From Levilactobacillus fujinensis (GTDB lineage: Bacteria; Bacillota; Bacilli; Lactobacillales; Lactobacillaceae): a DNA stretch of 64,000 bases. A program made the position numbers and the translations under genes. Of the stretch, positions 11,021-63,030 are shown piece by piece; the first letter of the stretch is position 1; every line of letters starts with the position of its first letter. The notes beneath the pieces are model-generated. The model was not told where the DNA came from, ran no database searches, and saw only the letters and a program-made list of their open reading frames with translations. The stretch lies in contig NZ_RHNX01000010.1 in NCBI RefSeq assembly GCF_003946335.1, positions 1 through 64,000 of the forward strand, given 5' to 3'.

Positions 11021-11240
11021 TAAGGATTGAAAGTTTCAAAACACCTATTTTGACCGTTCTCGCAACAATACTGTAGCTAAAGCTAGGCAATATAGCCCTA
11101 TCATCATCTTCCCAGCCGGCAAATTTAGGCGAGAAACGGTGCAAACACAACTTGAAACCTCTAAAGGACCGCGTCTCCAATCTTACTTTTCTATCAAATC
11201 AGCAGAAAGTTCACTCATCGGCTTCAGCCAATATCTGGCA
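11021..11240 (+). repeat. interspersed repeat, degenerate left-end copy
   Basis: TAAGGATTGAAAGTTTC at the left matches the terminal repeat. After it come eroded forms of the family's blocks: GGCAATATAG, CATCATCTTCCCAGCCGGCAAAT, GTGCAAACACAACTTGAAACCTC, AAAGGACCGCGTCTCC. Confidence 0.65.
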
Positions 11241-27666: not shown

Positions 27667-27933
27667 CTAAAGATTGAAAACTCTAAAACACCTAGTATGC
27701 TTGTTAACAGCTAGACTGAGACTAGGCAACGTCGGCCAACCATCGCCTTACCGGATTACGTCGTGGGACGACCTGCGCTTTCAGGCGAGCTGGAAGCCAG
27801 TCCTTGGGCTGGAGGCATTCCCCACAGCCGGCAGAATCCCTAGCAGCCAGAGTACGACCGTTTCAACTAGTTTAACGGTGACAACGCTTACTGTCGCAAG
27901 AGTAACATGAATATTTTAACTTTCAACCTTCAG
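27667..27933 (+). mobile_element. MITE-like element, 267 bp, with target-site duplication
   Basis: Left end CTAAAGATTGAAAA, right end CTTTCAACCTTCAG: near-perfect terminal inverted repeats. It is flanked by direct repeats ATACTTA at 27660-27666 and 27934-27940. Inside are the left-half blocks (GGCAACGTCGGCCAACCATCGCCTTACC) and right-half blocks (GGCTGGAGGCATTCCCCACAG, AACGGTGACAACG) joined after an internal deletion. No reading frame of note. Confidence 0.8.
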
Positions 27934-42309: not shown

Positions 42310-42914
42310 CTGAAGACATGAAAGTTCCAAGACACTCATTATGACTGTTGTCACAACGATACGGGGTCTAAAATTAGGCAACGTTGGCTAACCATCGCCT
42401 TACCGGCCGGCAGATATGGGCTGGATCGGTGCGAACACAACTTGAAGCCTCGAAAGGACCGAGTCTTCAAGCTTGGTTTTCTACTAAGCCAGCAGGAAGC
42501 CCACCTGCCGACTAAGTAGAACGACGCGCCTGAGCCCATATCTGCCGACCTCTCGGCTGACGTAGTTGGTCTGAGGCAACAAGGATCATGCCGTTAGGAA
42601 CGCTGTTGAGTTATGCTTAAACTTTAGCAGCCACTTGGGAGTCAGTGATTGGAATTGACGCGCACAATCAGAGCCGGAGGCGGTCAGGGATGCAGCTAGC
42701 CGTGTCGACGATGCTAGTCGGCGTTTTTCCCGGCTTACATCGTGGGACGACCTGGGAGACGCCTGATTTTGGCGGCTTTCAGGCGAGCCGGAAGCCCGTC
42801 CTTTGGCTGGAAGCGTTCCCAACAGCAAGCGGAATCCCTGGCAGCTGGAGTGCGACCAGTACCACTAATTTAGCGGTGACAATTCCTTATACAGCTACTA
42901 ACGGATTCAACCTT
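42310..42914 (+). mobile_element. MITE-like element, longest copy, about 605 bp
   Basis: Starts CTGAAGACATGAAAGTTCC and ends GGATTCAACCTT. It carries all blocks in order: the left part to the CTACTAAGCC segment, a central part with TATCTGCCGACCTCTCGGCTGACGTAG and GCTTAAACTTTAGCA, GTGGGACGACCTGGGAGACGCC, GGCTGGAAGCGTTCCC, and the CACTAATTTAGCGGTGAC right part. The right terminal repeat is partly deleted, and no duplication is visible. No open frame is supported. Stretches outside it within 41961-43094 show no gene. Confidence 0.72.
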
Positions 42915-44556: not shown

Positions 44557-45208
44557 GAGCTCACCTTAATTCTAAATAGGCCACCGCCTACCATTCTCGT
44601 GAATCTGATTAAGCCTATTATACTATGGTTACTCCCAAAAGAAAAAGGGTTCTCCAAGCGCTGTGAATTCTTTCTGGAAATACATAGAGAAAGCCGGCTT
44701 GCTGCTGACTGGTGATGCACGACGACCGCCAGAGATTCTGTTGGCTTCGTGTTTGAAGACGCGCTGCAAGTTGGATTAGCACCGTTGCCAGCCCCTATCT
44801 GGCACCCCGGTAAGGTAAGGCAAAGCAACCACAACGTTCTCAAATTTTGTTGCTAAGAAATTTTGGGCAAAATAAAACCGGACCGCCTCTTTACTATTCC
44901 CAAATGGGGATTACCAGAAAAGGGGTTTAGTCAGGCACAGTTCACAAACGCAGAACCAAGAGTATGAATTTATATTACGGGAAAAAAGTGAAGAAACATG
45001 CTACATTTAAGTAGAAAAGGAAGCAACCAAATCAAGTGATAGCTTTGTATTGGTAAATAACACACTCGACTCAGTGGCTTTTTTCTGTCCCCGGCATATC
45101 TAAAACCAGTGGCGGTAAGACAACCATGGTTAGCAAGGTTGGGGGGCGCCGGAGAGCGTAAGGAATTTTATACCGCTTATTATTAATTTGGTTGTTATGG
45201 AGATGCTA
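44557..45208. other. non-coding region with degenerate repeat
   Basis: No gene seen. Between about 44690 and 44850 is an eroded reverse copy of the interspersed repeat (TTCGTGTTTGAAGACGC, GCAAGTTGGATTAGCACCG, CCCTATCTGG, CCGGTAAGGTAAGGCAAAGCAAC). The remainder (44900-45190) is AT-rich. Confidence 0.45.
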
Positions 45209-45895
45209 ATGAATACGCAACGAAAATTAAACATTGCTACTGTTTCCTTTAGTCTAATCGCCGGAATCCTATTGTCTATCAAGATAACTGATTATTATCA
45301 ACTATCAAAGATGTGGGTGGATCATCCTGACGCCCACTTAAAGAATTATATTTTGATTCTTTGGATTTTGGTAATCATTTTAATCTTAAATGATTTAGTA
45401 TGGTTTTATTTTCGCACTAAAGAGTTAAATTTTAAAACATGGCTAAACTTTAGTATTCTAGTCGTAACTTTGAGTGGCTATATTTTTCAATTCACACAGT
45501 CTCCCAATTATAAGAGCTACCATGTAACACCTTATCCAATAAGCGCTGTCACAGTTGAAAAACAAGTAAATTCCAAGTCGTATAATCCATATAAAGACTT
45601 CCCCATTTACTTCTATAGAAAGACAGATCACTCATATAAAGACGTGAACCATCTAATTCGCCTGTATTCATTAGAACAAAGTAATGATCTACCCAGTATT
45701 AATATGGCAACTTTAGAAAAAGAGTTGGGCAAGAAAAGATATGATGTCGTTATTAAAAATGCAAAAATAAACGCTAACAACGCTTTCTTTGTGAAATATA
45801 CTGACTCTAATGCCAATTCTCGTAGAATTACATTTAATAATCTACAAAAATCAGGGAATCTAAATAAAGCATTGAAATTCATTGACAATCACTAA
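45209..45895 (+). CDS. AT-rich membrane protein of unknown function
   Basis: 228 residues from the ATG at 45209 (GGAG 6 nt upstream; two earlier in-frame ATGs lack a site). Helices near 8-30, 42-63 and 77-95, then a soluble C-terminal half of about 130 residues rich in Lys, Asn and Tyr. I recognise no domain. It is clearly more AT-rich than its neighbours, uses Asn/Lys/Ile codons heavily, runs against the surrounding minus-strand genes and splits ispE from veg. These are signs of recent transfer. Terminator and repeat element follow directly. Confidence 0.72.
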   Translation: MNTQRKLNIATVSFSLIAGILLSIKITDYYQLSKMWVDHPDAHLKNYILILWILVIILILNDLVWFYFRTKELNFKTWLNFSILVVTLSGYIFQFTQSPNYKSYHVTPYPISAVTVEKQVNSKSYNPYKDFPIYFYRKTDHSYKDVNHLIRLYSLEQSNDLPSINMATLEKELGKKRYDVVIKNAKINANNAFFVKYTDSNANSRRITFNNLQKSGNLNKALKFIDNH

Positions 45896-45991: not shown

Positions 45992-46000
45992 AGTTACCAG

Positions 46001-46453
46001 CTAAAGGTTGAAAGCCAAAATGTTTGCGTTACTCTTGCGACAGTAGGAATTATCACGGCTAAATTAGTGGAAAACAGCCGCACTTCGGCTCTGACTGTGC
46101 CCGTCCATTTCGAACGCTGAATTCCAGGTAGGTGTTAGAATTCAACACGGCGCAATAGCTATTTCTAATAGGCATGATCTATGTTGCCTCAGACCAACTA
46201 CGGTAGCCGAGAGGTCAGCAGATATGGGCTCAGGCGCGTCGTTCTACTTAATCAGTGGGTGGTGGTTCCTCGTTGGCTTAATAGAAAACCAAGCTTGGAG
46301 ACTCGGTCCCTTCGAGGCTCCAAGTTGTGTTCACACCGATTCATCCCATATCTGCCGGCCGGTAAGGCGATGGTCGGCCAACGTTGCCTAATTTAGACCC
46401 AGTATCGTTGTGACAACAGTCATAACGTGTATTTTGGGACTTTCAACCTTCAG
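46001..46453 (-). mobile_element. MITE-like element, 453 bp, with target-site duplication
   Basis: Outer ends CTAAAGGTTGAAAG and CTTTCAACCTTCAG form a 14-bp terminal inverted repeat with one mismatch. Direct repeats TTACCAG lie at 45994-46000 and 46454-46460. It carries left and right blocks in reverse orientation plus the hairpin module CTTGGAGACTCG..CGAGGCTCCAAG. This is the best-preserved copy in the window. No gene inside. Confidence 0.85.
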
Positions 46454-46521
46454 TTACCAGTCAACTCGGCGTTACTACTGGTTAACTCATTACATCACAG
46501 TGACAGAAATGTCCGCAAAAT

Positions 46522-46547: not shown

Positions 46548-46784
46548 CTATTCATCAAAGTCAACTTCGATGTTCTTGGTTAAAATATCGGTGTAACTGT
46601 ATGAAACCCGTTCAAACGAGTTTTCGTCTTGGTCTAGATCCACTACGAAAACGGCTGGATAGGTTTCCCGAAGAATTCCATGCCGCTCTGTCGTCTTCTT
46701 ACGCCCGGCCTGTGCAATCACCATCAACTTTTCGCCGATGCGATCGTCCAGTTTGTTCTTAATGTTCGCTAAACTTGTTGGCAT
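46548..46784 (-). CDS. veg: Veg family protein
   Basis: 78 residues from the ATG at 46784 (AGAGGTG upstream; a longer frame lacks support). MPTSLANIKNKLDDRIGEKLMVIAQAGRKKTTERHGILRETYPAVFVVDLD, read in two parts, matches Veg of Bacillus almost throughout. In B. subtilis Veg is abundant and promotes biofilm matrix expression. It lies between rsmA and ispE, its usual place in Firmicutes. Confidence 0.93.
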   Translation of the reverse strand: MPTSLANIKNKLDDRIGEKLMVIAQAGRKKTTERHGILRETYPAVFVVDLDQDENSFERVSYSYTDILTKNIEVDFDE

Positions 46785-46883
46785 GCACTTCACCTCTGTG
46801 AAACAATTATAACATCGTTTCACAAAAAACGCAAATTATACCACAACCGGCTTAAAACCGCAAGAATCCTCAATTGGTAAGGG

Positions 46884-57479: not shown

Positions 57480-57670
57480 GCGGCAAAACCGGGTTCAGGT
57501 GCGTCGTTCTATTAAGTCAAGGAGTGTTTAGTAGAAAAATAAGCTTGCAGACTCGGCATTTTCGAAGTTTTAAGTTGTGTTCGCACCGATCTAGTCCCAT
57601 AGTTACCGGCCGGGTATGGCGATGGCTGGACAACAGTCATATGTCATGGCTTAAACCTTTCAGTTATCAG
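57480..57670 (-). repeat. interspersed repeat, left half, reverse
   Basis: Reverse blocks: GGTGCGTCGTTCTA, AGCTTGCAGACTCGGC, AAGTTGTGTTCGCACCGATCTAG, GGCCGG, GACAACAGTCAT, and right terminal repeat CTTAAACCTTTCAG. It starts 3 nt after the araC stop. Confidence 0.7.
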
Positions 57671-62431: not shown

Positions 62432-62971
62432 CACAGGCTTCGGTCGGTCCCCACAGTATGGGCGTCTGCCAGCCGCAGAAAAAATCCACAGTCCCTAAAC
62501 CACTCTCTCTAACACCCACCACTAGGTAGCGAAAGGCCACTGGAAAATCCAGTCAACGTTAACTCGTGTTGCCGGAGCCGGAGGAGACTAGGTACGGAGT
62601 CCGTGTCGGTGCTGTTAGCTAGCGTTTCTGCTAGGTTACAGCACGGGACGGCTTGGAGACTCGCTCTTGGCGGCTTCAAGGTGAGACCGAAGACCGCTGC
62701 ATAGGCTTCGGTCGGTCCCCACAGTATGGGCGTCTGCCAGCCGCAGGTAAAATCCCCATAATCACTAAACCAATCTCTCCAACAACCCACCTCTAGGTAG
62801 CGAAAGGCCACCGGAAAATCCAGTCAACATTAACTCGGGTTGCCGGAGCTGGAGGAGACTAGGTACGGAGTCCGTGTCGGTGCTGTTAGCTAGCGTTTCT
62901 GCTAGGTTACAGCACGGGACGGCTTGGAGACTCGTCTTTCGAGGCTCCAAGCCGCCTCTGAAGACCGCTCT
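62432..62971. repeat. tandem 268-271-bp non-coding repeat between mvaA and ppx
   Basis: Two near-identical units begin at about 62436 and 62704 (GGCTTCGGTCGGTCCCCACA) and run through CTAGGTAGCGAAAGGCCAC, GGAGACTAGGTACGGAGTCC and GGTTACAGCACGGGACGGCT. Inside is stem GTGCTGT.A.CTAGC / GCTAG.T.ACAGCAC. An inverted, diverged stretch CGTAGTACCTAGTCTCC follows at 62999-63015. The GGGACG..TGG.AGAC..TTGGCGGCTT and CTGCCAGC blocks align with the centre of the 42310 MITE-like element. No reading frame is convincing. Confidence 0.75.
62920..62954. terminator. strong hairpin downstream of ppx
   Basis: CGGCTTGGAGACTCG / CGAGGCTCCAAGCCG with one mismatch and a 5-nt loop. It shares its sequence with the hairpin module of the 46001 element. 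It lacks a U-run, so intrinsic termination is doubtful. Confidence 0.45.
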
Positions 62972-63030
62972 TCAGGCTTCAGAGGTCGCCCCACGGACGT
63001 AGTACCTAGTCTCCGCAGGCGGCATCAGGG

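Follow-up and report, generated by a model that had tools for sequence, protein, structure and literature searches.

What is the 453-bp segment at positions 46001–46453 of a 64,000-nucleotide stretch of Levilactobacillus fujinensis DNA (the window), what moved it there, and what is kept in its interior? A preliminary description had proposed a MITE-type element with 14-bp inverted ends and a 7-bp target duplication, moved by a transposase supplied in trans.

An element with inverted ends and a target-site duplication

The boundaries proposed for the element are correct (Table 1). Its two terminal inverted repeats (TIRs) are complementary at 13 of 14 positions, and the heptamer TTACCAG is exact on both flanks. 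The element also lacks genes, as had been claimed. No transposase gene is present, the longest open stretch is 98 codons, and the longest open reading frame (ORF) contained entirely in the element, among those of 50 aa or more, is 71 aa. The left neighbor is a hypothetical gene (45188–45895, + strand), and the right neighbor (46548–46823, − strand) is presumably a Veg-like gene.

Table 1. Features of the element and of two further copies in the window
Feature	Position	Strand	Basis
MITE, non-autonomous, 453-bp one-domain form	46001..46453	+	ends and copy alignment
Left TIR, CTAAAGGTTGAAAG	46001..46014	+	sequence reading
Right TIR, CTTTCAACCTTCAG as read, CTGAAGGTTGAAAG on − strand	46440..46453	-	
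Target-site duplication TTACCAG, left	45994..46000	.	
Target-site duplication TTACCAG, right	46454..46460	.	
CTTCGG, point of the absent second inverted domain (~170 bp)	46083..46088	.	copy alignment
Retained folding domain	46204..46370	-	covariance model R1, 50.0 bits, E 1.3e-8
Second complete short element, 267 bp	27667..27933	-	one exact TIR, right end with 2 mismatches; TAAGTAT on both flanks; coordinates derived from the 267-bp distance between ends
Decayed near-full-length copy	42319..42914	+	domain at 42395–42559; coordinates converted from locus L013

Plasmid and phage sequences gave no match to the element, in a search from which records close to the source genome may be missing. Within the open-licence PMC literature, no published description of the repeat was found by title or by the start of the abstract. 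The TIR sequence string, used as a literature query, returned no paper whose title concerned bacterial repeats.

Dispersed copies and precise insertion

The source genome (G000; 3.0 Mb in 103 contigs) contains at least 60 BLAST pieces of the element, itself included, with 40 of 273 candidates scored. The other pieces are 76–96% identical to it. Allowing at most one mismatch, CTRAAGGTTGAAAG occurs at 142 sites in this genome and a reversed control pattern at 2, so the enrichment of the TIR is above chance. The preliminary description had looked to the genus for the terminal repeat and to copies elsewhere for duplications, and both are there. Of 35 congeneric genomes, 23 contain the exact TIR (control, 0), and 21 distinct elements carry a target-site duplication (TSD) of 6–9 bp. 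An exact 32-base core pattern found 76 stretches in a named genome collection, all of them within six Levilactobacillus species; the source genome's own record is possibly absent from that collection.

The 21 elements derive from 28 TIR pairs with at most 2 mismatches per end, a list confined to pairs flanked by a repeat of 5 bp or more, from which 7 second reads were removed. Their TSDs are 7 bp long in 14 cases, 8 bp in four, 6 bp in two and 9 bp in one. When misses are included, 12 of 20 TIR pairs from two congeneric species (G030 and G015) are flanked by an exact TSD of 7 bp or longer, and the other 8 have no exact TSD.

Two elements, L003 and an L. koreensis element (L162), sit within another dispersed repeat that also has empty copies. 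With the flanks of L003 joined, the target TTTACGC is present once in both of the empty copies displayed. For L162, the target TTGCTGA is single and exact in three of the five empty copies displayed and carries 1–2 changes in the other two. These flank alignments are those of precise insertion with a 7-bp duplication. Two of the 16 spanning rows in the empty-site search were set aside, since in them the tandem pair at locus L252 had aligned to itself. The empty sites foreseen in the preliminary description were thereby found at related sites for two other copies, and not for the 46001–46453 site itself. At the orthologous site in sister species, the intergenic DNA is too diverged or is occupied by other copies, and no empty site was seen there.

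Several side observations were made among these copies. The repeat that hosts the two insertions belongs to a further dispersed Levilactobacillus repeat or repeats, seen at L037, L018, L014, L034, L105 and L216, with one core GCTGAAACGTGGGACAAAAGGC. An 894-bp copy in the source genome (L019; G000:C10:4724-5617) has exact ends and an 8-bp TSD; part of its interior is replaced by more than 300 bp absent from other copies, possibly captured host DNA. One 3.0-Mb genome (G373, genus g21) holds 324 exact TIR sites, a striking expansion. Its elements are ~320 bp long, and two of them are adjacent in L252.

The ends are shared with an IS4-family insertion sequence

A family-wide scan found the TIR in 70 of 397 genomes and 15 of 40 genera. 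One TIR pair among those listed, from a genus other than Levilactobacillus (L247), lies 1565 bp apart and encloses a single long gene. This IS has exact TIRs and the TSD GCTTCAG. NCBIfam model NF049925 places its transposase in the IS4 family (E 3.9e-140), and the Pfam matches are to DDE_5, DDE_Tnp_1 and DDE_Tnp_1_7; in the PDB the transposase has no sequence relative at E 0.01. An intact 1559-bp IS with exact TIRs and the TSD CTGATTAA is present in a genome taken as L. koreensis (L267, G018). The YREK signature can be read in the partner IS transposase, and in the koreensis protein it takes the form Y-(2)-R-(3)-E-(6)-K.

Thirty loci were examined in other genera. Among these, eight of ten IS copies of 1562–1567 bp have a TSD of 6–8 bp, six of them 7 bp; the remaining two have a 5-bp repeat (L391) or none (L390). 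Four further, shorter pairs lack a TSD, and 16 loci have no pair at all. The partner IS of 1559–1567 bp is thus represented with a 7–8 bp TSD at L247, L267, L392, L393, L394, L404, L405, L413 and L417, and with a 6-bp TSD at L414.

Within Levilactobacillus, 15 of 35 genomes contain relatives of the transposase at E 0.001, many of these relatives being fragments. Among the near-full-length copies, that of G018 has exact TIRs, whereas that of G009 is interrupted by a stop codon, its ends are mismatched and it lacks a TSD; those of G019 and G010 are of a more distant type with different ends. The source draft genome yielded 0 transposase candidates related to the partner IS, and the transposase was likewise not found in the TIR-rich genomes G017, G033, G027 and G015. 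In other genera, we compared TIR-rich genomes (22 of the 25 genomes outside Levilactobacillus that have 4 or more TIRs; G108, G210 and G269 were left out) with TIR-free genomes of the same genera. At E 1e-10, 12 of the 22 TIR-rich genomes have the transposase, against 2 of the 26 TIR-free ones (Fisher p 0.0005). This co-occurrence links TIR to IS and is partly circular, because IS copies themselves bear the TIR.

On contig C77 of the source genome, an IS256-type transposase lies ~260 bp from a TIR. IS256 was considered as the partner and rejected, since this IS has inverted ends of its own. At L115 (G000:C77:3015), an exact TIR adjoins an unrelated IS, and the bases that follow it resemble the partner IS end. 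This TIR could be a worn end of the partner IS, although the resemblance is a weak indication.

The description by De Palmenaer et al. (2008; PMC2266710) gives the ISPepr1 subgroup of IS4 a length of 1500–1600 bp, ends of the form YT-AA-YTT---A, direct repeats of 7–8 bp and the YREK signature. On that description the partner IS is alike in length (1559–1567 bp), in its repeats, mostly of 7–8 bp, and in YREK. Its ends, CTAAAGGTTGAAAG, agree with the subgroup at 7 of 8 defined positions, with G rather than Y at position 7. The MITE differs from an ISPepr1-type IS in having no transposase, and its similarity to the IS is limited to 19–24 bp at the ends. Since the two have the ends alone in common, the element is unlikely to be a simple internal deletion of the IS.

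The identification of 46001–46453 as a MITE with IS4/ISPepr1-like ends is therefore supported, and the ends, which the preliminary description did not recognize as those of a named IS family, have a near match in that subgroup. The proposal of movement in trans is supported by the dispersed copies, their TSDs, the two related empty sites and an autonomous IS that shares the ends.

The element is a shortened form of a two-domain structure

Full copies are ~620 bp long in the source genome and 615–644 bp in G030. They are laid out as TIR, domain, linker, inverted homologous domain and TIR, with each domain ~170 bp long. Covariance model R1, which describes one of the domains (186 positions and 65 pairs, built from 13 G030 copies), gave 132 matches in 98 sources, a chosen subset of loci. 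In L051, L257, L249 and L263, R1 matched two domains on opposite strands; at its threshold, it left the second domain unmatched in the source genome's own full copies. A model built from the second domain (R2), run on 20 loci, found both domains in all nine two-domain source-genome copies given (L007, L008, L010, L011, L012, L015, L016, L020 and L029). The second domain scored 89–142 bits and the first, on the opposite strand, 28–37 bits. In a 450-bp copy (L002) R2 matched the first domain only, and in the element at 46001–46453 (L001) it had no match.

The element is thus a shortened form with one of the two domains. Full copies carry the missing domain between two CTCCGG repeats, and the shortened copy has CTTCGG at that point. 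Six copies share the 450-bp one-domain form, so the shortened form has probably itself transposed. Five further copies lack the first domain through five different junctions near the stem base, two of the five being truncated. Such varied junctions are expected where a hairpin forms in DNA.

Further weak copies of the domain lie elsewhere in the window, at 11107–11237, 57481–57620, 62584–62684 and 62840–63025. In G005, two domain copies (L350 and L353) are found in units of ~280–290 bp with inverted ends CTGTCTTAAAA or close to it. To judge from these ends, the domain perhaps also rides with other transposases.

The domain is widespread and also occurs without the ends

Of 201 Lactobacillaceae genomes, 41 have R1 matches at E ≤ 1e-5, and these represent 10 of 40 genera. 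In a 299-genome draw of the class, whose share of other Lactobacillaceae is incompletely listed, the source genome alone matched at 1e-6. By these model matches the domain appears so far only in Lactobacillaceae.

Many domains and zero exact TIRs are found in G005 and G032. Self-alignment of 24 loci (eight from tujiorum, four from fuyuanensis, five from G032 and seven from G005) gave a boundary in 23. The unit measures ~163–199 bp in 21 of these; the other two, both from tujiorum, have units of ~310 bp. Seven of eight hammesii units are longer, at ~410–445 bp, and one is 188 bp. A further check, with G077 and G009 added, covered 38 loci whose domains come either from TIR-poor or TIR-free genomes or from places outside a genome's TIR elements. 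None of them has a TIR pair within 2 mismatches, and three (L351, L375 and L382) have a single TIR-like end within that limit. Among 299 domain matches in the loci examined, with repeated reads of one place retained, a TIR-like sequence (up to 3 mismatches) lies no more than 300 bp away in 150 and is absent from that range in 149. A local search for empty sites of end-less domains gave spanning matches in 58 of 257 queries. Those examined in detail are element-internal deletions, and no clear end-less insertion was seen. The end-less copies could be worn elements that have lost their ends.

Compensatory changes in the fold

In a model-fitted alignment of the domain (A4; 126 distinct sequences), 63 of 65 pairs show double-sided changes. 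Cells with a double change number 1212, against a mean of 354 after shuffling and at most 178 with slid partners, in an alignment that, being fitted to the covariance model, leans towards structure. Double changes far outnumber one-sided ones in the domain (1212 to 114), compared with 150 to 81 in RNase P. Under a tree-based null, 28 of 55 pairs pass when all 132 matches are used; restricting the set to the best 100 matches leaves 16 of 55. In a sequence-only alignment of 69 full copies, one pair falls below E 0.05, at 48% canonical, and no canonical pair is significant.

Is this fold kept as RNA or as DNA? The exceptions at paired positions are balanced in the domain, with 242 G-U (95 of them from one mostly G-U pair) and 247 A-C, compared with 442:1 in RNase P of the genus. 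The RNase P reference covers 30 congeneric genomes (28 distinct sequences) out of 35 with a match, and its structure was predicted with G-U allowed, which favors G-U. With Watson-Crick-only structures, the GU:AC counts are 22:15 in G030, 22:32 in the source genome, 22:13 in koreensis, 17:4 in enshiensis and 12:1 in RNase P. The decay of dead copies adds G-U and A-C equally. The parity of the two points to DNA rather than RNA, though not conclusively. Folded as single-strand DNA, the domain at 46204–46370 departs only moderately from expectation (z −2.8 and −2.0). Taken together, the evidence favors DNA over RNA fairly well but does not settle the choice.

Discussion

We put the probability at roughly 0.87 that the element at 46001–46453 is a gene-less MITE with IS4/ISPepr1-type ends, moved in trans, whose full form has two domains and which has lost one of them here. 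An IS4-type transposase with the same ends would have moved this copy, although none was found in the draft genome, and the reaction would be cut-and-paste, as is known for the family. The missing domain was most likely lost through slippage between the CTCCGG repeats at the hairpin base.

For the interior our reading is more tentative. A fold kept with compensatory changes and no clear strand bias suggests that an extruded or single-stranded DNA form plays a role or leaves a trace. The domain may be a folding DNA module of ~170 bp, with a branched hairpin kept at the DNA level and recognized in its extruded or single-stranded form, which spreads both as inverted pairs in the MITE and as end-less copies. 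We regard this as possible, short of an even chance. In such a scheme, candidates for recognizing the folded DNA would be a recombinase, the transposase, or a host factor of replication or of repair.

Other explanations bear on these readings to different degrees. An immobile functional intergenic element, such as a terminator or regulator, might have been duplicated along with the genome. The domain is indeed mostly intergenic: by crude ORF calls (100 aa or longer) in 75 sources, with 23 edge matches set aside, 12 of 148 domain matches fall within an ORF call, each of ~100–150 codons. Gaps that bear the domain are convergent in 25 of 82 cases, compared with 53 of 279 for all gaps, but this enrichment is modest. 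The target duplications and precise empty sites require insertion and contradict immobility for the TIR-bounded form. We hold this explanation to be very improbable, although an end-less domain might still be of this kind. It is considerably less remote, but still unlikely, that the folding domain is a non-coding RNA cargo whose compensatory changes preserve an RNA structure. Pair conservation as strong as that in the model-fitted alignment would suit an RNA, as would the stable folds of the whole element as RNA (z −4.7 for one strand and −4.8 for the other). Some subsets also lean to one strand with Watson-Crick-only structures, enshiensis at the ratio given above and domain B of G030 at GU 14 : AC 4. 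The overall balance of G-U and A-C, so unlike RNase P, speaks against an RNA, as does the excess of A-C in the source genome under Watson-Crick-only pairing. Rfam, too, gave no match over the element at the gathering score or at E up to 5.

A neutral interior deserves more weight than either, although we think it somewhat doubtful. Here the covariation would be a by-product of quasi-palindrome correction by template switching, with no selection. Mutations of this kind are documented, and template switching predicts both the large excess of double over one-sided changes and the lack of strand bias. The repeated domain deletions near the hairpin base fit as well. Correction accounts for matching arms, however, and not for the topology and length that are kept. 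Moreover, a domain recognizable in 10 of 40 genera, and TIR-less in several species, is more than would be expected of neutral filler. Template-switch correction could nonetheless account for part of the covariation.

How does the element compare with known repeats? Bcr1 repeats of the Bacillus cereus group are mobile and non-coding, ~155 bp long, with a conserved fold and a 5-bp target duplication. Judged by this general description, they and the element are both mobile non-coding repeats with a conserved fold. Bacterial MITEs, as presented in a review (PMC10969869), are typically AT-rich; QMITE2 of Coxiella has direct repeats of 7–9 bp and TIRs of 23–29 bp. Going by that text, the element is like them in being non-coding, bounded by TIRs and a TSD, high in copy number, mostly intergenic and stably folded. 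It differs in its greater length (~450–640 bp), in the G+C content of the Levilactobacillus copies (48–55%), in its two homologous inverted domains with measurable covariation, and in having a domain that also occurs without TIRs. The end-less domain is like REP/BIME and stem-loop repeats, as outlined in two papers (PMC2817692, PMC2267715), in being dispersed, palindromic, mostly intergenic and non-coding, and unlike them in its size of ~165–200 bp and its branched fold. The ends make the element a member of a known MITE type. What is new is the domain in inverted pairs, which also occurs without ends.

The analysis indicates which transposase is the partner and brings to light an extensive family of repeats in the lactobacilli. 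MITE interiors are usually regarded as free to drift, whereas here a fold is conserved across many genera and its covariation does not behave clearly like that of an RNA. With young and old copies to compare, the family offers a natural many-copy system for separating selection on a DNA hairpin from hairpin deletion and quasi-palindrome correction. If the DNA-fold reading is true, the module would count as an independent element of structured DNA and not as filler.
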